Positions 31 to 14,052 of a DNA stretch of 27,722 nt are shown here, piece by piece. A model generated the notes under the pieces. It ran no database searches. It saw nothing but the letters and a program-made list of their open reading frames with translations, and was not told the origin of the DNA. The first letter of the stretch is position 1. Every line of letters starts with the position of its first letter. The position numbers and the translations under genes are program-made. Location: positions 1 through 27,722 of the IMG/VR virus record IMGVR_UViG_3300023180_000314. One strand, 5' to 3'. Source of the stretch: a virus.

Positions 31-539
31 TTGTCGGTCTCCACAAAGCGGCAGCCAGCGTCGTACAGCTTGCCAGCGAAAATAAGGTCGTCTGTATCTG
101 CTTTTGGTAGTTTTTTCTTTACTGAATCAAAAAACAAATCACGCTCTGATTTGATTGGGCGGAATTGATCGACAAAGCGAAGGCTCCTGCCTGCAACCAA
201 GCAAGCAAACTCGCCAGCACTTATCTCTTTTAGTGGTTCCACTTTTCGCCATTTCCAGATATCTGCAAGATCAGTAGTAAAGCCCTCACACTCAACACCC
301 ACCTCCGGTACAAATGCTGCCTTAGTTGGGCGTTTGGCTAGTGGAACCCAGTAGTCGCGCCCCAATGCAAGGCTCTCTTCGCAACCTGTCTCTCCATATT
401 TGTTTGCAAACTCAACGGAACCTACATACTTGTTATTCCCCTGCCAGTCTGGGCCAGTTGTAAATGCGTAGTCATGCGCAGGGTCTACATTCTCATTCCA
501 CCATGCGGGATCGTTTAGTTGTTCTTGTGTCGGTTTCAT
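27..539 (-). CDS. Hypothetical phage protein, 170 aa
   Basis: I do not recognise a family. The protein is acidic and soluble, with no membrane segment. Its start is firm: a strong ribosome-binding site, AGGAGGA, lies just upstream of the ATG. The N-terminal part is rich in W, Y and G (around residues 13-65), and two Cys occur close together near residue 52. It follows the small-gene array in the early left operon and is separated from it by the last attC-like element. Its stop overlaps the start of another gene, so the operon continues out of the window. Its AGGAGGA site is the best match in the window to the loop of the candidate small RNA at 10525-10638. Confidence 0.75.
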   Translation of the reverse strand: MKPTQEQLNDPAWWNENVDPAHDYAFTTGPDWQGNNKYVGSVEFANKYGETGCEESLALGRDYWVPLAKRPTKAAFVPEVGVECEGFTTDLADIWKWRKVEPLKEISAGEFACLVAGRSLRFVDQFRPIKSERDLFFDSVKKKLPKADTDDLIFAGKLYDAGCRFVETDK

Positions 540-564
540 TTGTCGGTATCCTCCTCTTTCCGCT

Positions 565-606
565 CATAATTACGGACGCTAAGCGCCGTTTATTTCAATG
601 TTATTT
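565..606 (+). other. attC-like site 8 (degenerate left end of array)
   Basis: On the + strand the arms ACGGACGCT and AGCGCCGT pair with one unpaired extra A in the left arm, as in integron attC L-boxes. The right end is GTTATTT, a good cleavage-box match. The left end is CATAATT, where CATAAC would be expected, so the R'' box is degenerate. The TAA stop of the 60-aa gene at 601-783 is read from this GTTA. There is no U-tract, so a terminator is unlikely. Seventeen bases of the core (571-587) recur with one change at 889-905. Confidence 0.5.
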
Positions 607-783
607 AATTGCGGCTAACTGACTGGCACAAAATCGAATAATACTTTTATATGCTTCGACACGTCCGCAATATCGTCCGTCACCATGGTCTGCCTGTCCG
701 TCATCTTCATATGTGTCAATGTCGTCCTTGGCCGTTTTGATTTGCTCTTTAGCCCATTCTATCGTTCTAATTAGTTCTTCCAT
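601..783 (-). CDS. Small cassette gene, 60 aa, hypothetical
   Basis: The start is the ATG at 783, preceded by AAGGCGAG at good spacing. An in-frame TTG further upstream lies inside the neighbouring attC-like element and is less likely. The product begins M-E-E-L-I-R-T and is helical, with an acidic, Asp/Gly-rich middle (D-D-G-Q-A-D-H-G-D-G). No family is recognised. The gene is a clean single-ORF unit: an attC-like element lies just upstream of its ribosome-binding site and its TAA stop lies inside the next element. This is the layout of an integron-type gene cassette. Confidence 0.7.
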   Translation of the reverse strand: MEELIRTIEWAKEQIKTAKDDIDTYEDDGQADHGDGRYCGRVEAYKSIIRFCASQLAAIK

Positions 784-798
784 TTTTCTCGCCTTATT

Positions 799-861
799 AA
801 ATAACAAATAATTCAAAGTGGACGTTCGTTCGACTCACGCCCTTTAATAACTGGGTTATAT
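799..861 (+). other. attC-like site 7
   Basis: The ends are AATAAC and GTTATAT. Inside, CAAAGTGGACGT on the left pairs with ACGCCCTTT on the right, leaving one unpaired T and one G.T wobble. Further out, AATTCAAAG pairs with CTTTAAT, leaving an unpaired C. Both extra bases are in the left arm, as in known attC sites read in their top-strand direction. The outer sequences (ATAACAAATAATT ... AATAACTGGGTTAT) are shared with sites 3 and 5. The gene at 601-783 starts 16 bases beyond its left end. Confidence 0.6.
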
Positions 862-884
862 GTCTGTTGATTACTACCCCTAAA

Positions 885-923
885 ATGATACAGACGCTAA
901 GCGCCTTGGGTTGTGTTGTTAAC
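885..923 (+). other. Truncated or rearranged attC-like site
   Basis: The right half is intact: GCGCC arm, then TTGGGTTGTGTTGTTAAC. It closely resembles the right half of site 4 at 3068-3119 (CCTTGGATTGTGTTGTTATAC). The left end lacks a TAAC box. The core TACAGACGCTAAGCGCC matches site 8. The TAA stop of the gene at 919-1125 lies in its GTTAAC. It abuts site 7 after about 23 bases of unassigned DNA, so two elements stand side by side here. A past recombination or deletion between two sites is the simplest explanation. Confidence 0.45.
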
Positions 924-1125
924 TATCCATCTTGTCTGCAAGTGCGCGGAAGTGAATTGCATCGAGTTTCATACCTTCGTGAAGTGCTTCCAGATAATTT
1001 TCAAGTTTTGCGGTGCTGATGGTTTTCTGTTTTTCGCAGATTTCATAAAGCCCTTTCAGTCGTGTGCCATCAGCTAGTTTAGCGGCTTTTTGTATCGTGT
1101 TTCGCTTGTCGTATGGTGATTCCAT
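919..1125 (-). CDS. Small cassette gene, 68 aa, hypothetical
   Basis: The ATG at 1125 is preceded by GGAG six bases upstream. The longer reading from a TTG at 1137 would use that same GGAG as coding sequence and is rejected. The protein (M-E-S-P-Y-D-K-R-N) is charged and predicted helical, with a single Cys and no membrane segment. I recognise no family. It lies between attC-like site 6, just upstream, and the truncated site, which supplies its TAA stop. Like its neighbours it is a single-gene unit in the leftward early operon. Confidence 0.7.
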   Translation of the reverse strand: MESPYDKRNTIQKAAKLADGTRLKGLYEICEKQKTISTAKLENYLEALHEGMKLDAIHFRALADKMDS

Positions 1126-1139
1126 TTTAATCTCCAAAT

Positions 1140-1187
1140 AGTTAACAAAGCATTACACGGGATAAACCCGTGAATGTGGGGTTATTC
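1140..1187 (+). other. attC-like site 6
   Basis: This is the most compact and convincing stem in the array. The ends are GTTAAC and GTTATTC. The arms CATTACACGGG and CCCGTGAATG pair perfectly except for one unpaired A in the left arm, closing a five-base loop (ATAAA). The unpaired extra base and the unpaired spacer between R and L boxes are attC hallmarks. The TAA stop of the gene at 1182-1487 is formed by its GTTA box. No U-tract follows in either direction. Confidence 0.65.
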
Positions 1188-1487
1188 ATCTAGGTCTTTA
1201 AATTCTGCCCTAGGTAAAGACTGATATTCACCAGCCCGAATAGCCGCAGCTAATCTTTCTAGCCAGTCGGCCATTTTAAGCGCAGCGTTTTTCGGTGTTT
1301 CTTGTGGTGGGAAATCATCTAGCGCAAGTTTTGCCACCCATTTAGGATTAAACAGACCGTCAACGCTGCTAATAGTTAATAGCTGATCAACACTGGTCGA
1401 ACCATTGTTTTGCTCAATCATGTACTCGAAAACCTGTGCGTCTTTACCCTTGGTGTACTTGTGTAACTCTACTTTCCCTTTATTCAT
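1182..1487 (-). CDS. Small cassette gene, 101 aa, hypothetical
   Basis: The start is well supported: GAGGT lies seven bases before the ATG, which is only 14 bases from the end of attC-like site 5. The product is 101 residues (M-N-K-G-K-V-E-L-H), soluble, with a central segment resembling phage-encoded unknowns, including a W-L-E-R-L-A-A-A-I-R-A helix near residue 75. No catalytic motif is visible. It is flanked by sites 5 and 6, and its stop codon TAA is inside site 6. It fits a stand-alone accessory gene. Confidence 0.75.
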   Translation of the reverse strand: MNKGKVELHKYTKGKDAQVFEYMIEQNNGSTSVDQLLTISSVDGLFNPKWVAKLALDDFPPQETPKNAALKMADWLERLAAAIRAGEYQSLPRAEFKDLDE

Positions 1488-1500
1488 TTTTACCTCGGAT

Positions 1501-1562
1501 GAATAACAAATAATTGAATTAGAGCCTCGCGGGACTCAGCCAAATTAATAACTGGGTTATGC
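1501..1562 (+). other. attC-like site 5
   Basis: The ends are GAATAAC and GTTATGC. The outer arms AATTGAATT and AATTAATAA pair with an unpaired G on the left arm. The inner arm GAGcC/GaCTC forms the central hairpin. It is almost the same sequence as site 3 at 3300-3362, including much of the loop, which shows that the two are copies. The TAA stop of the gene at 1557-1775 is inside its GTTA box. Confidence 0.6.
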
Positions 1563-1775
1563 GTGATAGCTATTGTACTTCTCAATAGCTATAAGTGGGT
1601 CACTGTAACTATTGCTTGTTTGTATATGTCCATCATGAAACTTAACTCTGTATCTTAGTTGTGCAGGGTTAAAACTGAGGTATTTAGCTTTATGTGTTTT
1701 TGCGCTACAGCTACTAGCCAATACAATTTCTTTGTCCATTGCAGGCATTACTTCATCTAATGTTACTGTGTGCAT
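1557..1775 (-). CDS. Small hypothetical protein, 72 aa
   Basis: The ATG at 1775 has CGGAG upstream at normal spacing. The protein (M-H-T-V-T-L-D-E-V) is predicted mostly beta and has one Cys; no family is recognised. It lies downstream of ninG with an 85-base gap that carries one copy of the 18-bp operator-like sequence (1830-1847) and an AT-rich stretch (TATATATA), so it may have its own regulated promoter. Its stop is inside attC-like site 5. With the 57-aa membrane gene, ninB and ninG it occupies the one multi-gene interval between two attC-like sites. Confidence 0.7.
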   Translation of the reverse strand: MHTVTLDEVMPAMDKEIVLASSCSAKTHKAKYLSFNPAQLRYRVKFHDGHIQTSNSYSDPLIAIEKYNSYHA

Positions 1776-1829
1776 TTTATTTCTCCGTTAGTTGATATAT
1801 ATAGATTAACAGCATCTTTGTTTTATTCA

Positions 1830-1847
1830 TTGGCAAAAACTACCAAA
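1830..1847. promoter_or_regulatory. Operator-like 18-mer, single copy
   Basis: TTGGCAAAAACTACCAAA is an interrupted dyad (TTGG-N9-CCAA) and is an exact match to the copies at 7841 and 12496. It lies between the ninG stop and the start of the gene at 1557-1775. The recurrence at gene boundaries on both arms of the phage suggests the binding site of one phage-encoded regulator. Confidence 0.55.
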
Positions 1848-1860
1848 TAAAGCTAAATCA

Positions 1861-2484
1861 TTAGCCTAATAGCTCAATTTTCTTTTTCAGATCGTTGGCC
1901 TTCTTCCTGTACCTGGCTTTGATCTCCTTTAAATCTTCAATTGTGTAATTCTTGGGCTTATGTGGGCCTTCTAGCCATTCAACCCTGTTAAGTCCGATTT
2001 TATCTATTAGTTTTTCTCTATATCTAGTAGCAACTGATCTTGCCTTGTGTGCAAATTTCTTTGAGCCTGCATTGCATGACTTGCACTGTCTACTCGCATT
2101 ATCTTCCTCGAACCTTAATTCGTAGTGGCTCCCAACGCTTAGATAGTGCCCACAATCCCAAGCCCCGCCGACCTTCCACCCCTGATCTGATTCTATAATC
2201 TCTATCGGGGTATCGCAGCTAATACAACATTCTCCCCAATCCCTGAGCCTAACAAATCTATTAAACTCGGTCTGCGCCTCTTTTACCCATTCCCTTTTTG
2301 TCTTTAGTTTCTCTTTTCTGGCCTTAATTTCTGCCTTGTCCTGCTTTTCCTTTGTCTTTCGCGCCTTTTCTAATCCGTACTTTGCAGCATGGTCGAACGT
2401 GCAAAAGCCTTTTGCTTGTATCGGTTCTGAGCAGTCTTTAACCGATGGCAGCTCATTTTTACAGTATCGGCATTTACGGGCCAT
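1861..2484 (-). CDS. ninG: NinG/Rap-type recombination protein, 207 aa
   Basis: NinG (Rap of lambda) is a structure-specific endonuclease that resolves recombination intermediates in phage crosses. The protein has the family layout. An N-terminal zinc-binding cluster has C5, C8, C18 and C28. A long Lys/Glu-rich helical linker follows (about residues 40-75). The HNH-like core has C87-x2-C90, C111-G-H113 and C134-x2-C137 with the asparagine after it. A basic helical tail closes the protein. Length is typical. The ATG has GAGGGGG upstream and overlaps the ninB stop by one base (TAATG), so the two are translationally coupled. The ninB-ninG order matches the nin regions of lambdoid phages. Confidence 0.9.
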   Translation of the reverse strand: MARKCRYCKNELPSVKDCSEPIQAKGFCTFDHAAKYGLEKARKTKEKQDKAEIKARKEKLKTKREWVKEAQTEFNRFVRLRDWGECCISCDTPIEIIESDQGWKVGGAWDCGHYLSVGSHYELRFEEDNASRQCKSCNAGSKKFAHKARSVATRYREKLIDKIGLNRVEWLEGPHKPKNYTIEDLKEIKARYRKKANDLKKKIELLG

Positions 2485-2882
2485 TATTCCCCCTCACTTG
2501 GCCATGGCACACTAATCCCTAACTTTTGAGCTGTGTGCCTGTTTAGTGTTTCGTATATTTTCGGGTAGTCAGCCCGTTTAACTTTTGCAGTGCTCTCTAT
2601 GCTAAACATAGCCTTCTGAATTGGCCGCCACATGTATGCTTTGCACAAGTCCGGCGTCCAGCAAATATCAACATCCTGTTTTAGTGTGCGCTTCATATCA
2701 TACCCTGCTTCGTTTAGCGCATCCGCCAGCATTGCTAGATATTTATGCAAAGCCCTATTTTGCCGCCCTGATCTCGTCCTACCCTTTCGTTTAATGTCTA
2801 GCTCAAGATAGCGCGAATCTTCAAAGTCTTTTCTTAGCTGTGTTATGGCAGCGTCTAGGGATGATTGGTTATTAATAATCAA
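2484..2882 (-). CDS. ninB: NinB-like recombination protein, 132 aa
   Basis: NinB-type proteins bind single-stranded DNA and act in RecF-like phage recombination. The diagnostic R-T-R-S-x2-Q-N-R-A-L-H stretch (about residues 36-46) and the C-terminal S-T-A-K-V ... Y-x2-L-N-R-H ... W-P pattern fit this family or a close sister. The start is uncertain. I chose TTG at 2882 because it overlaps the TGA of the upstream membrane-protein gene (TTGA) and gives an N-terminus (M-I-I-N-N-Q-S-S-L) like those of relatives. The ATG at 2915 would add a hydrophobic extension and lacks a ribosome-binding site. The stop overlaps the ninG start. Confidence 0.75.
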   Translation of the reverse strand: MIINNQSSLDAAITQLRKDFEDSRYLELDIKRKGRTRSGRQNRALHKYLAMLADALNEAGYDMKRTLKQDVDICWTPDLCKAYMWRPIQKAMFSIESTAKVKRADYPKIYETLNRHTAQKLGISVPWPSEGE

Positions 2883-3052
2883 GAGAAGGCCCAATAGATA
2901 ACGAAATAAGGCCATGCCACAAAAAGTACAAAAGGCATTGTATTTTTGACTGAATTACTAGGATATTTAACATTGTGCTTACCCATTTTTGCCTGAACAT
3001 ACACATAACAGACAAACCAACAAATAACCCAAATTATTGAAAACTCTTTCAC
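2879..3052 (-). CDS. Small two-helix membrane protein, 57 aa
   Basis: GTG at 3052 has AGGAG six bases upstream. The product (V-K-E-F-S-I-I-W-V-I) has two hydrophobic stretches: about residues 4-20, and 39-56 (F-V-L-F-V-A-W-P-Y-F). A short basic loop joins them, typical of a small inner-membrane protein. It is the first gene after attC-like site 4, and its TGA overlaps the proposed TTG start of ninB. Function is unknown; a superinfection-exclusion or lysis-timing role is only a possibility. It is short and uses a GTG start, so gene finders could easily miss it. Confidence 0.6.
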   Translation of the reverse strand: MKEFSIIWVICWFVCYVYVQAKMGKHNVKYPSNSVKNTMPFVLFVAWPYFVIYWAFS

Positions 3053-3067
3053 ACTAATCTCCTTTAT

Positions 3068-3119
3068 CTATAACACTGTAATGCCAAGGACTCGATAGCC
3101 TTGGATTGTGTTGTTATAC
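3068..3119 (+). other. attC-like site 4
   Basis: The ends CTATAAC and GTTATAC pair over seven bases (TATAACA with TGTTATA). The inner arms TAATGCCAAGG and CCTTGGATT pair with one unpaired G in the left arm. An unpaired spacer separates R and L boxes, and the loop is nine bases. This is a textbook attC outline at 52 nt. The TAA stop of the gene at 3114-3287 sits in its GTTA box. Confidence 0.65.
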
Positions 3120-3287
3120 GGCTTTAACGTACCCTTCGTTGACGTCAATTAATCCTTCATCTTGCATTTGGCTTATGGTTCTCCGCTGAACAACAAACGG
3201 GATCCTGTAAAACGGTACAAATCCCCAAGTAAAGCTTTCTTGATTCTCTTTTAACCAATCATAGACTCTTTTATGGGATTTCTTCAT
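3114..3287 (-). CDS. Small cassette gene, 57 aa, winged-helix-like
   Basis: The ATG at 3287 begins M-K-K-S-H-K-R-V-Y-D-W-L. A TTG at 3308 would start inside attC-like site 3 and is rejected. The ribosome-binding site is weak. The basic N-terminal helix, the segment V-V-Q-R-R-T-I-S-Q-M-Q-D-E-G-L-I (residues 34-49) and a short beta tail resemble a compressed winged-helix DNA-binding fold, but this is only a visual judgement. It is a single-gene unit between sites 3 and 4, with its TAA inside site 4. Confidence 0.65.
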   Translation of the reverse strand: MKKSHKRVYDWLKENQESFTWGFVPFYRIPFVVQRRTISQMQDEGLIDVNEGYVKAV

Positions 3288-3299
3288 TTGATTCGGGCC

Positions 3300-3362
3300 G
3301 TATAACAAATAATTGAATTAGAGCCTCGTGCGGCTCAGCCAAATTAATAATCTGGTTATTGC
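3300..3362 (+). other. attC-like site 3
   Basis: The ends are TATAAC and GTTATTGC. The inner hairpin GAGCC/GGCTC is perfect, and the outer arms AATTGAATT and AATTAATAA pair with an unpaired left-arm G. It is nearly identical to site 5 along its whole length (ATAACAAATAATTGAATTAG is shared). Conserved copies of one site within a genome are typical of chromosomal integron arrays. The TAA stop of the P-loop gene lies in its GTTA box. Confidence 0.6.
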
Positions 3363-3592
3363 TCACTAATAACCCACGTCGTTTTGTTCACCATGTCCTT
3401 CTGCCAATCATCTAATTTGTCATAATCATTGCCTTTGCGTTCTATTCGCAAGTCTTCGCTTACGACATTAGCCCCAAACTCAGACTTAAGTGCCTTCTCG
3501 ATTCTATCCATGACAATAGATTTACCACACTGAACAGGGCCAGTAATAAGAATGTGCGCCACATTAGGAACTTTTATTTTTAATTCAGCCAA
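3356..3592 (-). CDS. Short P-loop protein in a cassette, 78 aa
   Basis: Residues 18-25, G-P-V-Q-C-G-K-S, form a clear Walker A motif preceded by a hydrophobic strand (H-I-L-I-T). At 78 residues it holds only the first P-loop half. There is no evident Walker B, though W-V-I-S-E-Q at the end could be a truncated strand with a catalytic-type acid. The start is TTG at 3592, eight bases after GGAGG. Reading further upstream would run through attC-like site 2. I recall similar small phage proteins of this layout but know no function. It is a single-gene unit between sites 2 and 3. Confidence 0.65.
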   Translation of the reverse strand: MAELKIKVPNVAHILITGPVQCGKSIVMDRIEKALKSEFGANVVSEDLRIERKGNDYDKLDDWQKDMVNKTTWVISEQ

Positions 3593-3609
3593 AACAATGC
3601 CCTCCGCGA

Positions 3610-3674
3610 GCAATAACAAATATTTAAAAGAGGAAGCTCGTTGAGACTCGCTCCCGTTAAAATTGGGGTTATGC
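3610..3674 (+). other. attC-like site 2
   Basis: The ends are GCAATAAC and GTTATGC. The arms GAGGAAGC and GCTCCC pair with one unpaired A in the left arm, enclosing a loop with its own small GAG/CTC pairing. The outer AAATATTT and AAAATT segments pair loosely. The TAA stop of the gene at 3669-3860 is in its GTTATGC box, and the ribosome-binding site of the P-loop gene begins a few bases beyond its left end. Confidence 0.6.
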
Positions 3675-3860
3675 GTAAAAATTGCCAATTGCAGCAATGC
3701 CGGAACAAACAATGGCGAACGCTATTGCCACTTCCCATCTAGCGAGGCTTTTACCATTCCTGTAACCATCCCAGTAATCAGCACTTTTGCCTTTCGCCTT
3801 GTACCCCATTTCAGCCATATCAACCCTTAGCTGATCAGTTATTCGTTCCATATCTGGCAT
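3669..3860 (-). CDS. Small cassette gene, 63 aa, one membrane helix
   Basis: The ATG at 3860 has AGAGGTG seven bases upstream and lies 22 bases from attC-like site 1. The soluble N-terminal part (M-P-D-M-E-R-I-T-D-Q) is followed by a Y-W-D-G-Y-R-N-G-K segment and a C-terminal hydrophobic helix, about residues 43-60 (V-A-I-A-F-A-I-V-C-S-G-I-A-A-I). It is probably a small inner-membrane protein with its N-terminus in the cytoplasm. No family is recognised. Its TAA stop is inside site 2. Confidence 0.7.
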   Translation of the reverse strand: MPDMERITDQLRVDMAEMGYKAKGKSADYWDGYRNGKSLARWEVAIAFAIVCSGIAAIGNFYA

Positions 3861-3881
3861 AAATCACCTCTTTAATTAATC

Positions 3882-3944
3882 GCATAACAACTAGCAGCAA
3901 ACGGACTGCGCGGCAAACCTCTTGCCTTTGTGCAAAGGTTATGC
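3882..3944 (+). other. attC-like site 1 (right end of array)
   Basis: The ends GCATAAC and GTTATGC are perfect inverted repeats. The inner arms GCAGCAAACGG and CCTTTGTGC pair with two unpaired bases (G and C), both in the left arm, as in classical attC sites with two extrahelical bases. A small GGCAA/TTGCC hairpin fills the top. No gene stop is embedded here. The next gene in transcription order upstream ends at 4001, so this marks the boundary between ordinary phage genes and the array. Confidence 0.65.
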
Positions 3945-4000
3945 CCTGCCACTCACCCACGGGCCATGGGTCAACTATGCCTGAGTGACTAGGCTAGGGA

Positions 4001-4339
4001 TTAATATCCGTTAGTTTGCTGGCCGTATGGCTGGCCTTGTGGGTATGCCTGCGGCTGCTGTTGAGGCTGCGCGTATTGCTGAGGTTGCTGCGCTGGCGGC
4101 TGTTGTAGCTGGTTTTGCATATCCTGCGTGCGAGGCTCAAACATAGAGCACATTACAGTGTCTCGGTTTTCTGGATTCGGCACGCCAGCTGGGTTGAATG
4201 TTGTTTTCAGTAGCATGAACTGGCCACCGTCATCACCCTGCATTACCGTTCCAATGTTCTCGTATCGGTTTTTAGTCTCGCCTTGGTTGTTTGTGTATGA
4301 GCCAGTTTTTACACATACATCATAGAGTTTAGTCGCCAT
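4001..4339 (-). CDS. SSB-like phage protein with Gln/Pro-rich tail, 112 aa
   Basis: The first 70 residues (M-A-T-K-L-Y-D-V-C-V-K-T-G) look like a compact beta-rich OB-type domain seen in phage proteins beside recombination genes. The last 40 are low-complexity Q/P/Y/G repeats (Q-Q-P-Q-Q-Y-A-Q), as in the flexible tail of single-strand DNA-binding proteins. The acidic D-D-x-P-F tip of bacterial SSB is missing. It follows the annealing protein and Gp157 in the same operon, which supports a DNA-recombination role. The start has GGGGAT upstream. The call is an inference from architecture and context. Confidence 0.6.
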   Translation of the reverse strand: MATKLYDVCVKTGSYTNNQGETKNRYENIGTVMQGDDGGQFMLLKTTFNPAGVPNPENRDTVMCSMFEPRTQDMQNQLQQPPAQQPQQYAQPQQQPQAYPQGQPYGQQTNGY

Positions 4340-4424
4340 TTTTGAGTATCCCCATTTTAGTTAATTGGCTAATAGTGTCTGCCGCCATTTCTGACAGCAG
4401 GGCTTGAACTTCTTTTTGTGTCAC
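4329..4424 (-). CDS. Tiny coupled ORF, 31 aa
   Basis: GTG at 4424 overlaps the TGA of the Gp157 gene (GTGA), and its TAA overlaps the start of the SSB-like gene by 11 bases. It therefore bridges the only gap in this part of the operon. The predicted peptide (M-T-Q-K-E-V-Q-A-L-L) is an amphipathic helix. There is no strong ribosome-binding site, so it may only carry ribosomes across to the next gene. It could also be a chance reading frame. Confidence 0.35.
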   Translation of the reverse strand: MTQKEVQALLSEMAADTISQLTKMGILKNGD

Positions 4425-4912
4425 GAAAATTTTAAACCCGCTTTTGATTCACCGATGTGCGCGCCCTCAATCTCCTTTCCGTCTTTCAACTCGTCAAGGA
4501 TTCGCTTTTTGTCTAGTGACGTTGTTACTTTAATAGATCGGTAATCGCTACCAATCGCATCCTCATCGTCAACCACCAGCATAGGCTTTGGCTTAATGTA
4601 TGATGCGGTCATTAGGTCGTTTGCAACCTTAGTCTTGCCAGTCTCGGCCATGTTGCGTACTAGGTATTCTTTCAGCCCATCAAGCTGATTTTCAATTGTT
4701 TTCCGGCGTTGAGCCAGTCGCTTTTCTTCAGACTTGATCGACTCAATGCTAGATTCCATGTTTTTCAGAATAAACAGGATATTGCCCGCCTTCTCCTCGA
4801 ACGCCTCATCTATATCATTGATCGCGTCTTGCAGTTGTTCGGGGTCTGCCCCTTCTGCAATCATCTGTTCAACTTGTTTTAGGTTCTCTGTTATGTTGTA
4901 TAGTTGCATCAT
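4421..4912 (-). CDS. Siphovirus Gp157-like protein, 163 aa
   Basis: This is a confident family match by eye. It has an N-terminal L-Y-N-I-T-E-N-L, a long acidic helix pair, the K-A-G-N-I segment, then the basic coiled coil E-E-K-R-L-A-Q-R-R-K-T-I-E-N and the Y-I-K-P-K-P ending. Gp157 proteins accompany phage annealing proteins and SSBs. Their biochemical role is not settled, although phage resistance of hosts carrying one has been reported for a streptococcal homologue. The start overlaps the upstream stop as ATGA and is preceded by GGCGGAAA. Confidence 0.85.
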   Translation of the reverse strand: MMQLYNITENLKQVEQMIAEGADPEQLQDAINDIDEAFEEKAGNILFILKNMESSIESIKSEEKRLAQRRKTIENQLDGLKEYLVRNMAETGKTKVANDLMTASYIKPKPMLVVDDEDAIGSDYRSIKVTTSLDKKRILDELKDGKEIEGAHIGESKAGLKFS

Positions 4913-5667
4913 TTTCCGCCTAGTCTTTTCTGAACTTCAAAATATTTTGCATCCAATGGGCCGATAGCCTGAGCTGGGTCGATCTTTAACGCCTTGGCCA
5001 ATAGTTCTGCCTTGTGTCGTGCTTTGGCGTACACCTTGCCCACTGCATCCATATTCGGGCAGCTATCCATCAAGGTATTGTGCTGGCCAATGTGATCGTT
5101 TAGTTCTTGCGTGCGCTTCTCAATCTCCGCAGCTTGGTCATCTGCCTTCTCGATTGCCAGTTCAACCTGTGCCGCCTCTCTGTACTCAATATCGTCAAAC
5201 TCACCCATGTAAACGTCAGAGCACACACCGACTAATGATAAACATTTCGTCATCGCGTCCGTAATGGATTTCTTCCCATATTCATGATCAACGAAAAATT
5301 TACCCGTTTTTGTCATGTACGAATACTTTGTATGGCCGTATTGAGTGAATGTGTTTTCTTTACTCCCTATCCACATCTCCATTAATACCGTGTGGGTTTT
5401 TTCCCATACCATCTGGCCGTTGTCAGTCAAATATACTGGCGCTACGCCTTGCGCCTTATTCCCCTCAATTAAAACGATTGGGCATGTGTTATCAAAACGC
5501 TCTTCTAAAATACGATACCCCCAGCCCTCGCCAATTGGGCCTAGCACCTGTGTGGCCAGCTTAACCATGTAAATAGGCGTAATGGCCGTTGATTTGCGGC
5601 CACCTTCATTGTTTTGCTTTGTGTACTTCTGATCTGTCTTTGGGAATCTATCCCAGTAATTGTTCAT
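4909..5667 (-). CDS. Rad52/ERF-like single-strand annealing protein, 252 aa
   Basis: The N-terminal half has features of phage annealing proteins of the ERF/Rad52 group: Y-M-V-K-L-A-T-Q-V-L-G-P-x-G-x-G-W-G-Y (about residues 33-51), then K-K-S-I-T-D-A-M-T-K-C-L-S-L-V-G and the acidic V-Y-M-G-E-F-D-D ending the core near residue 160. The C-terminal part is a charged helix, probably for ring assembly or SSB contact. Such proteins anneal complementary strands during phage recombination and replication. The ATG has GGAGG upstream. It heads the recombination set (annealing protein, Gp157, SSB-like, then NinB and NinG). Which sub-family it belongs to needs a profile search. Confidence 0.65.
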   Translation of the reverse strand: MNNYWDRFPKTDQKYTKQNNEGGRKSTAITPIYMVKLATQVLGPIGEGWGYRILEERFDNTCPIVLIEGNKAQGVAPVYLTDNGQMVWEKTHTVLMEMWIGSKENTFTQYGHTKYSYMTKTGKFFVDHEYGKKSITDAMTKCLSLVGVCSDVYMGEFDDIEYREAAQVELAIEKADDQAAEIEKRTQELNDHIGQHNTLMDSCPNMDAVGKVYAKARHKAELLAKALKIDPAQAIGPLDAKYFEVQKRLGGK

Positions 5668-5684
5668 TTCAAAGCCTCCATTAT

Positions 5685-5981
5685 CTAATTATCGTAATGC
5701 GATGTATAAACCGTTAGCGCCAGATCATAAATCGCTTCATTGACGCATTTAGCCAGCGCATTGGCGTTTTCAAGCGTAGGATTTCTGGCAATTTCAATCA
5801 TCATCGCGTGATATTCGCCACTAAACACAAGATTACCCATAACATCATCTGTGAAGTTGTAGCTGCATGGTTTTTTATGATCTACAACCCAGTCACCGCC
5901 GTTGGCTATAGTCTCAACGATGCTGCTAACAATTCGCTGCTTGTTTTCGTTGTACTCCATCTCTAGTTCGTATTCGTTCAT
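5685..5981 (-). CDS. Hypothetical phage protein, 98 aa
   Basis: I chose the ATG at 5981 (M-N-E-Y-E-L-E-M-E-Y), preceded by GGCGG. The upstream TTG at 6020 would add an unlikely leader. The protein is acidic and helical, with a W-V-V-D-H motif near residue 32 and no recognised domain. The pair of operator-like 18-mers at 6039-6086 lies just upstream. This gene, the annealing protein, Gp157 and the SSB-like gene may therefore form a separately controlled transcription unit. Confidence 0.7.
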   Translation of the reverse strand: MNEYELEMEYNENKQRIVSSIVETIANGGDWVVDHKKPCSYNFTDDVMGNLVFSGEYHAMMIEIARNPTLENANALAKCVNEAIYDLALTVYTSHYDN

Positions 5982-6038
5982 TTTTCCGCCATTTGCTAGT
6001 TGATGAGCACATCCTATCAATCGAGCGCGGTTAAATCA

Positions 6039-6086
6039 TTGGCCAAAACTACCAAATTAGTTGGCGTGTTTGGTAGTTTTTGCCAG
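6039..6086. promoter_or_regulatory. Inverted pair of operator-like 18-mers
   Basis: Two copies face each other with a 12-base spacer: TTGGCCAAAACTACCAAA (6039-6056), and its reverse complement form ending in TGCCAG (6069-6086). The spacer is exactly the same length as in the pair at 12496-12543. The pair lies between two leftward genes. It could also fold as a long hairpin, but it lacks a U-tract and single copies exist elsewhere, so protein binding is more likely. Confidence 0.6.
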
Positions 6087-6087
6087 T

Positions 6088-6405
6088 CTACAGCCCATCA
6101 GCCCACGATATGTCTGTCACTCGATCAGCTATCGTAGTCTGCTTGGCGTGATCTCTCTGGCTCATTCCCGACTGATTCACGGTAGGCCTTGCAGCATTTA
6201 GCCATGAATTAATGCTGCGTTTGATCCCCCTCCTTGTTTTTCGTCTAGACTCGTTTGAAAAGTGCCATGCAACCATTTTGCCCAGTTCTTCTCGTACATT
6301 TATTCGAGGGTAGGCCATCTCAAACATTATTACCATTTGCTCGTCTACATCAAATAAAGTTCCATCTTTCAAAATAATTTTATAGGACGTTGTCTGTAAG
6401 TTCAT
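6088..6405 (-). CDS. Replication-associated C-terminal-type domain protein, 105 aa
   Basis: The central part A-Y-P-R-I-N-V-R-E-E-L, followed by K-M-V-A-W-H-F-S-N-E-S-R-R-K-T-R-R-G-I-K-R and a W-L-N-A-A-R helix (about residues 31-73), is the pattern often found at the C-terminus of phage replication/initiator proteins. Here it stands alone with a short N-terminal beta part and a polar tail, so it may be a detached module that binds a replication partner. The start ATG overlaps the small coiled-coil gene upstream. The ribosome-binding site is poor, suggesting coupling. Confidence 0.65.
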   Translation of the reverse strand: MNLQTTSYKIILKDGTLFDVDEQMVIMFEMAYPRINVREELGKMVAWHFSNESRRKTRRGIKRSINSWLNAARPTVNQSGMSQRDHAKQTTIADRVTDISWADGL

Positions 6406-6538
6406 TTATAACACCCATTAATCTTTTGTTTTCTTCTATTAATTCATTCACCATCGCTCTGACTTTCGCCATGTCGCAAACTGTTTGGCAGCAATAGCTC
6501 ATCTCTACTTCTAACTGTTCAATTTGTTCTTGTTCCAT
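6380..6538 (-). CDS. Small coiled-coil protein, 52 aa
   Basis: The ATG at 6538 is preceded by GGGGGAAAA. The product (M-E-Q-E-Q-I-E-Q-L-E) is almost wholly helical with leucine/isoleucine heptads and two adjacent Cys at residues 16-17. The reading frame overlaps the start of the next gene by 26 bases, a compact arrangement typical of phage early operons. Short length explains why it is easily missed. No function can be assigned. Confidence 0.6.
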   Translation of the reverse strand: MEQEQIEQLEVEMSYCCQTVCDMAKVRAMVNELIEENKRLMGVINELTDNVL

Positions 6539-6589
6539 TTTTCCCCCAAAAAATCCCCGTTGATGCTATCGCTGGGGCAAAGTGAAGAT

Positions 6590-6649
6590 CACAACTGCGA
6601 TCTCTAACCATTCACATAGGCTCCTATATTTATGGTTAGATTAGTTGTG
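6590..6649. other. Long symmetric hairpin in an intergenic gap
   Basis: Three nested stems lie in one 60-base span. CACAACT/AGTTGTG is outermost (6590-6596 with 6643-6649). CTAACCAT/ATGGTTAG is next (6604-6611 with 6632-6639). Innermost is ATAGG-CT-CCTAT, with a 4/4 internal loop between the last two stems. It fills the gap between two small leftward genes. No U-tract follows it. It may be an mRNA structure that controls translation or decay of the operon, or a protein site. Confidence 0.45.
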
Positions 6650-6662
6650 TATCCCGAAGGAT

Positions 6663-6842
6663 TCAGAATAGACTACCCTGATACTCATTTTCTTCTATCT
6701 TATCGCTGGGCAGTCTTAGTTTTGTTATCTGGCCATTCCCGTTTAGTTTAAAACCTAGTTTTTTAAAACATTCAGGCCCGTAGGCTACTCCATTATAGAA
6801 GTAGCCTTTTCTTAGTTTTCTCCCGCAATTAAAACAGATCAT
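6663..6842 (-). CDS. Small Cys-containing protein, 59 aa
   Basis: The ATG at 6842 overlaps the end of the methyltransferase gene by 14 bases. The product starts M-I-C-F-N-C-G-R-K-L, a C-x2-C knuckle, with a third Cys at residue 25 (P-E-C-F-K-K) and a charged tail ending in G-S-L-F. It resembles half of a zinc ribbon; the usual second C-x2-C is incomplete. There is no independent ribosome-binding site, so translation would be coupled. I know of similar short phage proteins but no function. Confidence 0.6.
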   Translation of the reverse strand: MICFNCGRKLRKGYFYNGVAYGPECFKKLGFKLNGNGQITKLRLPSDKIEENEYQGSLF

Positions 6843-7788
6843 ATTGAGAGGCTTTTGCCTGCTCTAAATTGCGTACAGCCAACTTAAAATAAGACGGCTT
6901 TAATTCCGCCCCGATGAACTTCCGGCCTGCTTTCAATGACATATAACCTTCAGATCCAATACCTAAAAACGGACTCCAAACAATATCATTAGGATTCGAC
7001 CATAGCTGCAAGCATCGCTGGATAACATCCAATTGAAGTGGGCATATGTGGCGCTCATCGTCGCTGTCTCGGCCTTCTCGGAAATTTAAAGTATCAGTCT
7101 GGTTTATATCCATCCAAACTGGCGATGCGTAGCGCTGCCACACATCCACGCTCGTATTGTGAGAACCTTCAACCACCGTCCACGCTTGACGCCCATCATC
7201 CCACTCATGGCGTGCAAATCCACTGGCAGGCTCATCTCCTACGTAATATTGAAACTCTCCTGATATTGGGTCTTCATTATCACCAGGTTTACGCATCATC
7301 ACCAATGTATCAGGGATACCCATGCGGCTCATGGAACTATCTTTTTTAATAGTCTTATGTAAAAGCCCTAGAGCTTTAGTGCGTTGCATGGCCACTACTG
7401 GATCTTTCCAGATCACCACCTCAGAATGATAGATGAATCCCGCTTCTTGATAAGCTCGGATAATCTCGCCTCGAAAATCTCGAATACCAATAAACCCATC
7501 TCGCACTTTTGATGTCGGTAGATTCATGCAGTGTATGGCTACAATGCGCCCTTTTTTCATGACACGGAATTGCTCTTTAATCAAATGCTTGTAATGCTCC
7601 CAAAACTCCTCAGTGCTTGAGCTGTTGCCCATGTCACGGTCAGAATTTGAGTATGTGTAAAGCGACTCAAATGGCGGACTAAATACCGAAAACCCAACAC
7701 TCTCATCCGGTAGGCTCTGAGCAACCTCAACAGTATCAGCATTGTAAATTGCATAATCGTTTGTTAGCACTTGATCTAGAACATTCAT
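6829..7788 (-). CDS. DNA methyltransferase, N4/N6 type, 319 aa
   Basis: This is an SAM-dependent DNA methyltransferase acting on an amino group of cytosine or adenine. The catalytic motif IV is S-P-P-F (residues 37-40), near the N-terminus. The SAM-binding motif I F-L-G-I-G-S-E-G (274-281) is near the C-terminus, followed by R-K-F-I-G-A-E-L. This circular order is that of the beta class, and S-P-P-F rather than D-P-P-Y leans towards N4-cytosine or the related phage group. I chose the ATG at 7788, eight bases after GAGG; the upstream TTG has no such site. It follows the SNF2-like helicase. The pair may protect phage DNA from host restriction or mark it. Confidence 0.88.
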   Translation of the reverse strand: MNVLDQVLTNDYAIYNADTVEVAQSLPDESVGFSVFSPPFESLYTYSNSDRDMGNSSSTEEFWEHYKHLIKEQFRVMKKGRIVAIHCMNLPTSKVRDGFIGIRDFRGEIIRAYQEAGFIYHSEVVIWKDPVVAMQRTKALGLLHKTIKKDSSMSRMGIPDTLVMMRKPGDNEDPISGEFQYYVGDEPASGFARHEWDDGRQAWTVVEGSHNTSVDVWQRYASPVWMDINQTDTLNFREGRDSDDERHICPLQLDVIQRCLQLWSNPNDIVWSPFLGIGSEGYMSLKAGRKFIGAELKPSYFKLAVRNLEQAKASQYDLF

Positions 7789-7840
7789 ATTTTTATCCTC
7801 GGTTTTCTTCACATTGTTCAACTATTTGCTTTTTTTGTCA

Positions 7841-7858
7841 TTGGCAAAAACTACCAAA
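7841..7858. promoter_or_regulatory. Operator-like 18-mer, single copy
   Basis: This is an exact TTGGCAAAAACTACCAAA. It lies in the 72-base gap between the helicase stop and the methyltransferase start, ending two bases before the helicase stop codon. Its position suggests control of the transcription unit that begins with the methyltransferase. Confidence 0.55.
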
Positions 7859-7860
7859 TC

Positions 7861-9225
7861 TTATAGCCATTCTGGTAATTTAAACTCAACATCACCTAGG
7901 TATTCCGCCTTTTCAATCGCGGCTGCGAATATCTCTTTTTCCATGACTGTTTTCATGTGCTCAACCATAGATACCCCAAGTTCTTGATTCTGAGCGTCCT
8001 TTCTCTTGATATTCTCAATCACCGCGCCTTCTGTATCTGCGCTGATAACATGCACATTTACTGGTTTTGTTTGGCCGAATCGCCAACATCTGCGAATAGC
8101 CTGGTAGTACATTTCCCAACTATCCGACAGACCGACAAATATCATGTTTTGACAGTTCTGCCAGTTCATCCCGAACCCAGCGATTTTGGGCTTGCTCACT
8201 AGGCATTTAACTTCATTATGCGCAAATCCCAATAGCGTTTTCTCTTTATGTTCCGGCTTATCCGCGCCTTTAACCTCAACAGCATCTACAATACTTTTTG
8301 TTAAAAGTTCGCTCTCGTCATTCAGATTACACCAAACCAATACTGGCCCTTCGATGGTATTCGCCAAATCTGCGGCCTTCTGAACACGATCAATGACTGA
8401 ATCTTTACGCGCCTTGTTTCTATCCTGTAAACCTTGGGCTGGCTCCACAAATAGCTGGTCTGTAGGGTCTGTTTCAATCACATGCTCATGATAAATCAGC
8501 GGCGGTAGCTCATGGCGCGAACCATCAAAACCTAAATCAGATGGGTTGCGAATTACTACCGACCATGTAGCCAGCCACTCAAAGAACTTCTTCTGCCCAT
8601 GGCCCTTTAAACGCCATTTTGACGTATCTGAACCATCGTGAATAAAAAACATGGCCAGCATCTCAACTTGACTCATAATCCCCAGAAACTCTGATTGAGT
8701 CCCCAACTCCATAAAATCATTAGGGCTAGGCGTGGCGGTACAACTCAACCGATAGGGAATGGTTGATGCAAAATCTGTTATCTCCTTGCGTCTAGCTCCC
8801 ATCATGCCCTTTAGGATTGAACTTTCATCCAGAGCCACACCTTGGAATTGATCTTGTTTAACCTTATGCAATTGCTCATAGTTTGTGATGTAAATGTTCG
8901 GGCCGAATACATCATCCGATGGGTTTAGCTTCTCAACGTGAATGCCGTATTTCGCCCCTTCCTCAACTGTCTGACTCGATACCGCCAGAGGCGCTAGGAT
9001 AAGGACTGGATGGCCTGTGTGCTTTGCTACGCTATCAGCCCAAGATAACTGCATGATTGTCTTACCTAAACCCGTATCGGCGAAGATAGCCGCCTTACCT
9101 CGCTTTAGCGCCCACTTAACAATGGGCTGCTGGTAGTCAAATAGCGGATATCCAGATATATCAGCGTCAAATCCCGCTGAATCCTGCTTAAATTGTTTGC
9201 CGCTTATAAAATCTTGATAGTTCAT
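7861..9225 (-). CDS. SNF2-like DEAD/DEAH-box helicase, 454 aa
   Basis: This is a superfamily 2 ATPase. Walker A is A-D-T-G-L-G-K-T (residues 49-56), motif II L-D-E-S (132-135), motif III S-C-T-A-T-P-S (161-167), and motif VI Q-A-I-R-R-C-W-R-F-G-Q (375-385), the last with the SNF2-type spacing. It would translocate on or remodel DNA with ATP, probably in phage replication or protection. The ATG at 9225 overlaps the TGA of the upstream small gene (ATGA), which decides it over the GTG 15 bases earlier. Phages often carry this helicase next to a methyltransferase, as here. Length is normal for the compact phage type. Confidence 0.88.
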   Translation of the reverse strand: MNYQDFISGKQFKQDSAGFDADISGYPLFDYQQPIVKWALKRGKAAIFADTGLGKTIMQLSWADSVAKHTGHPVLILAPLAVSSQTVEEGAKYGIHVEKLNPSDDVFGPNIYITNYEQLHKVKQDQFQGVALDESSILKGMMGARRKEITDFASTIPYRLSCTATPSPNDFMELGTQSEFLGIMSQVEMLAMFFIHDGSDTSKWRLKGHGQKKFFEWLATWSVVIRNPSDLGFDGSRHELPPLIYHEHVIETDPTDQLFVEPAQGLQDRNKARKDSVIDRVQKAADLANTIEGPVLVWCNLNDESELLTKSIVDAVEVKGADKPEHKEKTLLGFAHNEVKCLVSKPKIAGFGMNWQNCQNMIFVGLSDSWEMYYQAIRRCWRFGQTKPVNVHVISADTEGAVIENIKRKDAQNQELGVSMVEHMKTVMEKEIFAAAIEKAEYLGDVEFKLPEWL

Positions 9226-9433: not shown

Positions 9434-9490
9434 TTGGCAAAAAATACCAAAATTAATGTATTTTTAAGTTTGTTTGGTAGTTTTGGTCAA
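9434..9490. promoter_or_regulatory. Inverted pair of operator-like 18-mers
   Basis: TTGGCAAAAAATACCAAA (9434-9451) faces a TTTGGTAGTTTTGGTCAA copy (9473-9490), spacer 21 bases. That is nine more than in the other two pairs, close to one extra helical turn. On the minus strand the second copy contains TTGACC, with TAAAAA 18 bases on, a possible promoter for the helicase unit with the operator inside it. The second copy overlaps the last codons of the GIY-YIG gene. Confidence 0.55.
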
Positions 9491-10057
9491 TTGCTTTCGA
9501 TACCCTGTAACGTGCTTTTTCCGCATTCTATCGAGCTTGGCCCTAGTCGCACTTTTTAGCTTAGGCTTATATGAGACCACCAAATCCAGTGACTCAATGT
9601 CAAACCACTCACCCCTGATATGATGCTTATTGCAAAGCCTGTGAAGCCTTCTCTCGGCTGTCTCTGCTATCGACCTGTCAGAACCAACATAAAACTTCCA
9701 CACCAATGAGACCTCGTCCGCATTGGCTGTTTGAATGCTTTTGATTCTTTTTTGGATATTGGTGCTATGACCTATCTTCACCCTATCACCGCATGTTAGT
9801 GCGTATAGGTAGTATTTTTTTTGAATTGGGCTTTGATCTTCGGACTTCTTTAAATCTCTTGAAAATCCACTTATTAGGGAGTCGATAAGCTCTGTCTGCT
9901 TGTAAGTCCATTGTTGGTAGCTCATAAAACTACTGATAAGCGACATGCTCACACCTGAGTTTTTGTGACCTGATTTAACTATTTCATGAAGCCATTCAAG
10001 GCGCTTTTCATTCTTTAATATTTGGTTGTTTTTCGTACTTTTATTTATTTTAGGCAT
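9464..10057 (-). CDS. GIY-YIG/T5orf172-type nuclease-like protein, 197 aa
   Basis: The C-terminal half carries the GIY-YIG-like core of the T5orf172/MUG113 group. It has Y-L-Y-A-L (residues 83-87), then V-K-I-G (93-96), an R-I-K-S-I-Q-T helix with Arg104, then A-E-x-A-E-R-R-L-H (about 131-139) and G-E-W-F (149-152). The N-terminal half is helical and basic, perhaps DNA-binding. The start is ATG at 10057, with AAGGGGAAA upstream; the ATG of the longer frame lacks this. It is the first gene of the leftward operon. It could be a DNA-processing enzyme or a selfish nuclease; context does not decide. Confidence 0.75.
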   Translation of the reverse strand: MPKINKSTKNNQILKNEKRLEWLHEIVKSGHKNSGVSMSLISSFMSYQQWTYKQTELIDSLISGFSRDLKKSEDQSPIQKKYYLYALTCGDRVKIGHSTNIQKRIKSIQTANADEVSLVWKFYVGSDRSIAETAERRLHRLCNKHHIRGEWFDIESLDLVVSYKPKLKSATRAKLDRMRKKHVTGYRKQLTKTTKQT

Positions 10058-10322
10058 AGTTTCCCCTTTTCCCATAAAGAGGTATATCCCAACTAGACTA
10101 TATGGCCTGTATTCCGGATATATCTTTTACGGTACTTGAATTCCCTCATAATGACCTAGATACAAAGGTTAAGCATTGCTAGGATTTATAAGCCGTATTT
10201 ATTCTCTTGCTTCCTGAGTCAAATAGAACTTTGCCTATTTCTTTGGGTCGCACTAATTGGGATAGGGAGTGCACTGCATCATAAACCTGATGGCAGCGAG
10301 AGATATGAATAAAAGACTGGCG

Positions 10323-12495: not shown

Positions 12496-12543
12496 TTGGC
12501 AAAAACTACCAAAATATTTTTAACGTTTGGTAGTTTTGGCCAT
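12496..12543. promoter_or_regulatory. Inverted pair of operator-like 18-mers over a promoter
   Basis: TTGGCAAAAACTACCAAA (12496-12513) faces TTTGGTAGTTTTGGCCAT (12526-12543), spacer 12 bases as in the 6039 pair. A rightward promoter TTGAAT-N16-AATATT (12491-12518) spans the first copy. The leftward extended -10 at 12477-12469 lies just on the other side. The pair thus sits between two divergent promoters, the classical place for a repressor. Confidence 0.6.
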
Positions 12544-13272: not shown

Positions 13273-13540
13273 AAAGCTGCCAGATGATGGGTTTTACTCA
13301 TTTTACTGGAACGGAAAGAAGATAACTAACAAGGAAGGCGCGTATTACTTCAATAGAATGGCGTCCAGTTTTAACAAGAAAGAGGAATCAGCAAGGCAGG
13401 TTATCGCTGGCCTGAACTACGAAAACGCTAAACTACAACAGCGCATAGACGAACTTGAGCATGAGATTAGGCAGGTTTGCGCTGGGTTAAAATACGCTGA
13501 ATTGAGACTACAAAGAGAAATTGAAAAGGGGGCGAAATGA
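13259..13540 (+). CDS. Coiled-coil hypothetical protein, 93 aa
   Basis: The ATG overlaps the end of the previous gene by 14 bases, with GGGGG upstream. The N-terminal 40 residues (M-L-Q-Y-K-K-L-P-D-D) are aromatic-rich. The rest is a long helix containing two copies of a similar stretch (A-R-Q-V-I-A-G-L-N-Y-E-N-A-K-L-Q and I-R-Q-V-C-A-G-L-K-Y-A-E-L-R-L-Q), an internal duplication of about 27 residues that forms a coiled coil. Function is unknown. Confidence 0.7.
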   Translation: MLQYKKLPDDGFYSFYWNGKKITNKEGAYYFNRMASSFNKKEESARQVIAGLNYENAKLQQRIDELEHEIRQVCAGLKYAELRLQREIEKGAK

Positions 13541-14052
13541 AACTAACAATAGAACAAGCGCGGGAAACTTACAAAGGCGCAGAGATTCACGAAGGCGCAG
13601 AGATTCGCGAAGGCGCAGTGATTCGCAAAGGCGCAGAGATTTACAAAGGCGCAGTGATTTACGAAGCCGCAGTGATTCACGAAGGCGCAGTGATTTACGA
13701 AGGCGCAGTGATTCGCAAAGGCGCAGTGATTCGCGAAGGCGCAGTGATTCACGAAGCCTCAGTGATTGGCGAAGGCGCAGTGATTCGCGAAGGCGCAGAG
13801 ATTTACGAAGCCTCAGTGATTGGCGAAGGAAGGAAAAACGTCAAAAACTCACTAGCCATTAATGGAATCGGAAAAACCGGAAATATAACGGCGTACCACT
13901 GCGAAGACGGGCTAATAGTCAACATTGGATGCGCAAATGACTACAAGGGTCTGCCAGTCTCTGAAATGCGTGAGCGTATCGCTGAGAAATACCCGTCCGA
14001 CCATGAGTATTTTGTAGCGATGGATTTAATCGAAAAGTGGGGATCGAAATGA
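13537..14052 (+). CDS. Hexapeptide-repeat beta-helix protein, 171 aa
   Basis: Residues 14-97 are 14 consecutive hexapeptides of the type G-A-(V/E)-I-x-(E/K), the signature of a left-handed parallel beta-helix; three repeats make one turn, so about 4.7 turns. The surface position alternates H, R, Y and G. The C-terminal 74 residues form a separate domain (N-I-T-A-Y-H-C-E-D-G-L, then helices ending in F-V-A-M-D-L-I-E-K-W). No acyltransferase active site is evident, so the helix is likely a scaffold, possibly for binding DNA or protein. The start overlaps the previous stop (ATGA). Confidence 0.8.
   Translation: MKLTIEQARETYKGAEIHEGAEIREGAVIRKGAEIYKGAVIYEAAVIHEGAVIYEGAVIRKGAVIREGAVIHEASVIGEGAVIREGAEIYEASVIGEGRKNVKNSLAINGIGKTGNITAYHCEDGLIVNIGCANDYKGLPVSEMRERIAEKYPSDHEYFVAMDLIEKWGSK
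13576..13827 (+). repeat. Tandem 18-bp repeat, 14 units, coding
   Basis: The unit is close to GAAGGCGCAGTGATTCGC and encodes one hexapeptide. Units differ at the codons for the exposed residue and at GCA-GTG versus GCA-GAG. Because 18 is a multiple of three and the unit has no stop, other frames also stay open across it. Those frames (Arg/Ser/Asp-rich on +, Cys/Ala/Phe-rich on -) are shadows, not genes. Confidence 0.9.

Follow-up and report, generated by a model that had tools for sequence, protein, structure and literature searches.

A probable integron-type cassette array of reversed polarity in the early operon of a putative P22-like phage

attC sites and their genes in the window

The window analysed here is a linear fragment of 27,722 bases that makes up the entire IMG/VR virus record IMGVR_UViG_3300023180_000314, and its gene set (a DNA-ejection protein, head-closure Hc3, a tail spike, an endolysin, an Ant antirepressor, Gam, NinB, and NinG) suggests a P22-like virus. 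Seven plus-strand elements with two-part stems and unpaired extra bases, each running from TAAC (the R'' box) to GTTA (the R' box), lie within 3.2 kb of this fragment, as found both by direct reading and with a covariance model. Small minus-strand genes lie between them, and NinG and NinB sit amid the array (Table 1). Judging from their sequence and predicted fold, the elements are genuine integron attC sites. A second contig, L014 (L and G numbers are handles for the sequences compared), is an independent copy that was 99.95% identical over window 2707-8274, and the right half of the array can therefore not be an assembly artefact.

An earlier, sequence-only reading of this DNA had proposed attC-like sites separating small genes in a nin-type phage operon, and most of it was borne out: the TAAC..GTTA ends, two-part stems, and extra bases at all seven sites, the gene sizes of 57-101 codons, the operon setting with NinG (PF05766, phrog_171) and NinB (phrog_72), and the near-identity of its elements 1501 and 3300 (1503-1560 and 3303-3358 were 90% identical). 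Its list of elements held for the seven full sites, including the one at the right end (3885-3941), and for a damaged copy at 885-923, but not for 565-606, which it had counted as nearly complete; this is a decayed site, because R'' is missing (TAAT.. and not TAAC). The damaged element, 885-921, has a 19-nt match to 3098-3116 and a 17-nt match to 571-587 and, on these matches, looks like a hybrid of the 565 and 3071 types. The inverted core boxes AAC and GTT were present as TAAC..GTTA in 7/7 full sites. Set against the full consensus RYYYAAC / GTTRRRY, bases 1-4 of R' fit, and position 5 was T in all seven (GTTAT..).

The covariance model, R1, was built from aligned training attC sites of three independent integrons, those of Vibrio anguillarum phage MK672802, Shewanella phage MZ568829, and a class 1 integron in MH445380, with long loops trimmed and no site of the present phage group included. 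With all filters off, the seven sites were the top seven R1 matches in window 500-4050, all on the plus strand, and the best minus-strand score there was 9.1 bits. With default filters, a search of the whole window and two relatives returned only 1143, 802, and 1504 from the window. A covariance search had been proposed by the sequence-only reading; with this purpose-built model it gave matches, and on one strand. My own structural finder, run on the plus strand of the whole 27.7 kb, returned the same seven sites and no other. Its chance rate on Markov-generated windows was 0.73 matches per 27.7 kb for both strands, and six sites were reached in 0/300 random 3.5-kb stretches; it could not assign a strand clearly to window site 3614 or to a few long sites (L070). 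A naive inverted-repeat scan with long loops turned out to be unspecific, and the structured finder and the covariance model were used instead. Rfam families gave no match to the window hairpins.

Counted from TAAC, position 13 in the 5' arm holds the extra unpaired base of the Vibrio, Shewanella, and class 1 sites, and the extra-helical base of the window sites lies near position 13 in the plus-strand 5' arm, as in the training sites. Covariation was scored in 13 phage sites with equal arm length: the stem drawn with base 13 left out of the pairing was 95.9% paired, with six pairs altered on both sides, and reached a covariation score of 0.324, compared with 0.091 for shuffled sites (0/500) and at most 0.072 for slid controls. 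Together, the covarying stem with base 13 unpaired and the placement of the extra base assign the attC top strand to the plus strand. The opposite arrangement, with genes and attC co-directional and stops in the TAAC of the minus strand, was rejected on the R1 strand scores, the extra-base position, and the R'-side crossovers described below.

The most unusual point, which the sequence-only reading missed, is that the attC top strand is plus while every cassette gene lies on the minus strand, its stop TAA lying in the complement of an R' box. When orientation was taken from the site alone, the longest open reading frame (ORF) ran parallel to the attC top strand in 24/26 intervals of control integrons and antiparallel in 21/21 inter-site intervals of the phage arrays. 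In a canonical cassette the gene precedes its attC and points the same way; since the genes here are antiparallel, the attC lies upstream of its own gene, as it also does in an extra unit of the related contig L056. Sites at a convergent operon end can touch a parallel neighbour gene on the R'' side. A further relative, L049, carries a second array in a divergent operon, and the genes were antiparallel there too. A homologue of window 14641-14973 in L049 (14262-14594, reverse complement) ends exactly in an attC R box, unlike its counterpart in the window, and arrays in this phage group are thus not confined to a single operon. Almost all cassette proteins lacked a match to a family of known function; the 1182-1487 protein has distant relatives in HK225, N15, and Vibrio phages, and no relative in the viral contigs searched.

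Table 1. Features of the array region in window coordinates (bits of attC sites refer to covariance model R1; aa, amino acids)
Feature	Position	Strand	Remarks
Decayed attC	565..603	+	direct reading: inner stem and R' kept, R'' lost; no model match
Cassette gene, 60 aa	601..783	-	stop TAA in R' of 565-603; no family above cut-off
attC	802..858	+	22.0 bits; extra-helical C13
Decayed or hybrid attC	885..921	+	direct reading: R' and inner stem kept, R'' lost
Cassette gene, 72 aa	919..1137	-	stop TAA in R' of 885-921
attC	1143..1184	+	33.7 bits, E 7e-7; extra-helical A13
Cassette gene, 101 aa	1182..1487	-	phage family phrog_1258; stop TAA in R' of 1143-1184
attC	1504..1559	+	15.5 bits; extra-helical G13
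Gene, 72 aa	1557..1775	-	stop TAA in R' of 1504-1559
NinG/Rap junction endonuclease	1861..2484	-	PF05766 139.6 bits, phrog_171; core gene rather than cassette
NinB/Orf-like recombination mediator	2484..2915	-	phrog_72, E 8e-6
Small ORF, 57 aa	2879..3052	-	stays with site 3071 in L005 (window 2854-3117, 93%)
attC	3071..3116	+	17.2 bits on +, 9.1 on -; extra-helical G13; stem covaries in relatives
Cassette gene, 57 aa	3114..3287	-	stop in R' of 3071-3116; missing in L005
attC	3303..3358	+	9.9 bits; extra-helical G13
Cassette gene, ~85 aa, start uncertain	3356..3613	-	P-loop motif GPVQCGKS; stop in R' of 3303-3358; missing in L005
attC	3614..3671	+	12.3 bits on +; structural finder ambiguous on strand
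Cassette gene, 63 aa	3669..3860	-	stop in R' of 3614-3671; missing in L005
attC, right end of array	3885..3941	+	12.6 bits; extra-helical G13; R' is the junction with the conserved flank
Conserved right flank from R' (GTTATGCCCTGCC..)	3938..3995		joined to different attC in relatives

Gene exchange at R' among related phages

Relatives comprised L005 and L006, whose NinG proteins were 81-83% identical to that of the window, and contigs found by attC and flank patterns. In L005, the counterpart of window 2854-3117 (93%) is joined directly to that of 3938-3995 (95%), with the join inside GTTAT, and the three cassettes in between (window 3117-3937) are missing. The conserved flank GTTATGCCCTGCC has different partners: in the window it follows a site of the 3885 type, in both L005 and L049 one of the 3071 type, in L040 one of the 802 type, and in L006 a degenerate end. 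The 802-type site abuts other flanks in L016, L035, and L040, and site 1504 is 96.6% identical to a site in L025 that has unrelated flanks. At six aligned junctions, identity jumped at GTTA from 23-41% to 86-98%. Across the contig panel, with matches confined to the site left out, 16 homology-block ends lay within 4 nt of R' and 0 at R''; as some contigs have a common history, the 16 ends represent fewer independent events.

L056 and L059 form an occupied/empty pair for a single cassette, with flanks 95-96% identical. The extra unit of L056 measures ~257 bp, consists of a minus-strand gene and a plus-strand attC (8712-8768) at the 5' side of that gene, and follows directly after the ..TATTGTGTTG of L059. 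By these alignments, related phages have gained, lost, and swapped small genes exactly at the G/TTA of the attC R' box, a pattern suggestive of cassette trade between phages. The sequence-only reading had asked for gain, loss, or shuffling at the G/TT in related phages, and the three cassettes missing in L005, the L056/L059 pair, and the flank swaps supplied it; a lack of attC matches combined with a fixed gene order, which it had named as the outcome speaking against it, was not what emerged. The window-type attC (1504) was absent from the GenBank phage records and the PLSDB plasmids searched.

Integron integrases and the interpretation of the array

No tyrosine recombinase was found in the window (no PF00589 or TIGR02249 match in the record, which is a fragment), in agreement with the sequence-only reading, which had seen no integron integrase there, and the record has no linked intI of the kind that defines a complete integron. 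The only tyrosine recombinase among the array-phage contigs searched was an ordinary one, and the integrase of contig G004 was rejected as an IntI at 17.9 bits against a cut-off of 265. By eye, with no attI model applied, no attI was recognised. IMG/VR was then searched with an IntI alignment, which gave 121 relatives, of which 80 were kept; seven examined viral-contig proteins passed the NCBI integron-integrase model with 271-436 bits (cut-off 265). Five of the IntI-coding contigs searched (L063, L064, L065, L067, and L115; G016-G019 and G036) have a large-terminase match and are therefore probably phages or prophages.

The genes in L063, L064, L087, L107, and L115 run toward intI and co-directionally with it, the attC top strands point away from intI, and the stops lie in R', while L086, L089, and L102 look like pieces of ordinary Vibrio-type integrons with parallel genes. 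As a side observation, intI lies downstream of, and co-directional with, early-type genes separated by attC in several of the five contigs with a terminase match. A cassette protein of L049 (phrog_12600) was 72% identical to a protein encoded beside intI in L088. The IntI viral contigs of like polarity and this shared L049/L088 cassette family make a phage-integron origin of the arrays plausible, and the window array may share it.

The region is, with high confidence, an integron-type cassette array without an integrase of its own, that is, a cluster of attC sites lacking an integron integrase (CALIN), in the early/nin operon of a P22-like phage. A CALIN is recognised by at least two neighbouring attC and no intI, and seven sites were found in 3.2 kb. 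I file the array as a CALIN with newly arranged attC sites, neither a complete integron nor made up of canonical cassettes. Several findings weigh against this assignment: no IntI was found in the window or in 13 other array-phage contigs searched, all of them fragments; the R1 scores at 3303 (9.9 bits) and 3614 (12.3 bits) were low; the window R' box reads GTTAT.. and not the class 1 consensus GTTRRRY; and the attC subtype, searched as one exact pattern, was absent from 84,980 bacterial and archaeal species genomes.

Under the mechanism proposed for the array, the host, a prophage, or a co-infecting phage would provide IntI in trans. The enzyme would bind to the bottom strand in its folded form, which in this array is the operon's sense strand, and would excise and insert cassettes by attC x attC recombination at R'. 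In the one single-cassette difference found (L056/L059), the unit is a gene with an attC at its 5' side, and the stop codon is the first codon inside the cassette; an inserted gene would be expressed from the phage early promoter. Because the crossover falls beside the stop codon of the adjoining gene, a swap would spare neighbouring coding sequences and bring the new gene under the early promoter. The benefit may be that small accessory proteins, perhaps with roles in host takeover or anti-defence, are exchanged without disturbing NinB, NinG, and their neighbours.

Homologous recombination by NinB, NinG, or a Red-like system could also shuffle genes with no integrase involved, if the hairpins were conserved linkers between modules. 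NinB and NinG do lie inside the array, several site types recur at many boundaries, lambdoid phages are mosaic, and L049 and L005 show a mosaic break ~16 nt outside R''. Yet sites that share a junction are often unrelated left of GTTA (23-41%), with few common bases left, the block ends are one-sided (16 at R' against 0 at R''), and linkers predict neither the asymmetric extra-helical base near position 13 nor attC-type covariation; I consider this explanation very unlikely. It is highly improbable that the array is an inert fossil, a fragment of a bacterial integron array taken up in a single event and only inherited since: although no integrase occurs in the contigs, two sites of the window are decayed, and Qi et al. 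(2023; PMC9892861) discuss an origin of phage CALINs in bacterial hosts, the polarity is reversed relative to the bacterial control cassettes, some exchange is recent (junction flanks 97-99% identical), one phage (L049) has arrays in two different operons, and a clean occupied/empty pair was seen once among close relatives (L056/L059).

An action of the hairpins in mRNA (processing, translation, or termination), with gene exchange incidental, would accord with their position directly upstream of ribosome-binding sites in the transcript, but the constraint on the R boxes and the unpaired base is that of IntI substrates, no Rfam family matched, and base-exact exchange at R' would be left unexplained, so that this option appears extremely improbable. 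To my knowledge, IntI is the only enzyme known to use folded attC at G/TT, which counts against recombination of attC-like sites by another phage or host recombinase. Such a recombinase would fit the lack of an IntI linked to the array phages, but it is unlikely, as IntI1 recombined 5/6 tested phage attC (PMC9892861) and IntI genes occur in other viral contigs. Returning to the CALIN with IntI acting in trans, it may further belong to a cassette economy of the phages' own, a tentative proposal to which I give slightly less than an even chance: reversed-polarity units (attC, ribosome-binding site, gene), tailored to phage operons, would be moved among phages by phage-encoded or host IntI and would be largely unusable in ordinary bacterial integrons, because they are antisense to the integron promoter.

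Known systems, operon setting, and other features of the window

Phage attC are not wholly new, as the sequence-only reading acknowledged: the CALINs described in phage genomes by Qi et al. (2023; PMC9892861) are, like the window array, attC clusters without intI and with small genes. Typical cassettes in that study (TJE1, PH101) are described with the usual bacterial array structure, whereas the genes of the window array are antiparallel and exchanged with base-exact joins at R'. A full-text literature search, with preprints and most subscription journals outside its scope, gave no report of reversed-polarity phage arrays or of attC cassette exchange between phages, and arrays of reversed polarity that phages exchange look like a new arrangement of the known CALIN/attC system. 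Sedentary chromosomal integrons (Vibrio, Shewanella) share with the window the TAAC-AAA-..extra base 13.. pattern, near-identical attC copies, and single small genes; the window differs from the control integrons in its antiparallel genes, its short sites (42-58 nt core), and the lack of a linked intI or attI. Treponema integrons (PMC3607928) are also atypical in that intI has the same direction as the cassette genes, but there intI is transcribed toward attI with the cassettes beyond, while in the IntI viral contigs gene direction is toward intI and opposite to the attC top strand. Within 4680-5678 and 6644-8810, the deposited genome of virus Rctr41k (KX853513.1, L140) has an IntI-like gene and attC-like sites; unlike in the window, its genes are parallel, its sites measure 121-125 nt, and the gene is annotated only as xerD-like. 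The structural finder detected the Rctr41k sites but R1 gave no match, which makes them less certain.

The lambda nin region resembles the window in having NinB and NinG among small accessory genes, and I know of no attC sites in lambda-type nin regions. The structural finder detected no attC around NinG of Vibrio phage LP.2, and a search of genomes for the window NinG returned only a Thalassobium metagenome-assembled genome, at 51% and without an array. Phage early accessory genes turn over fast. Here the joint between swapped early genes is visible to the base and would be part of an integron system, which would make this turnover testable by existing integron assays. Reversed polarity would identify a pool of cassettes distinct from the bacterial one and offer a simple signature for phage integrons in sequence collections, and screens for anti-defence or takeover functions could draw directly on the small phage proteins of the window cassettes.

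A 17-nt repeat, TGGCAAAAACTACCAAA, is dispersed in the window, with ten matches at up to 3 mismatches compared with 0.13 expected, at positions including 1831-1847, 6040-6056, 6069-6085, 7842-7858, 9435-9451, 9473-9489, 12497-12513, and 12526-12542. Some copies form inverted pairs (6040/6069, 9435/9473, and 12497/12526), the repeat is present in relatives too, where it adjoins attC sites in some (L005, L056, and L059), and it is possibly an operator or promoter element. Gene 27-539 has at its two ends a 19-nt direct repeat (95%; 24-42 and 533-551), each copy of which covers a ribosome-binding site and a start codon, which suggests a duplicated gene start. On the plus strand, 13537-14052 holds a 171-aa ORF with ~14 copies of an 18-nt unit (EGAEI/EGAVI hexapeptides) and more than one open frame, probably a beta-helix. 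The minus-strand gene at 9464-10075 encodes a 203-aa protein that matches phage endonuclease and homing-endonuclease families.

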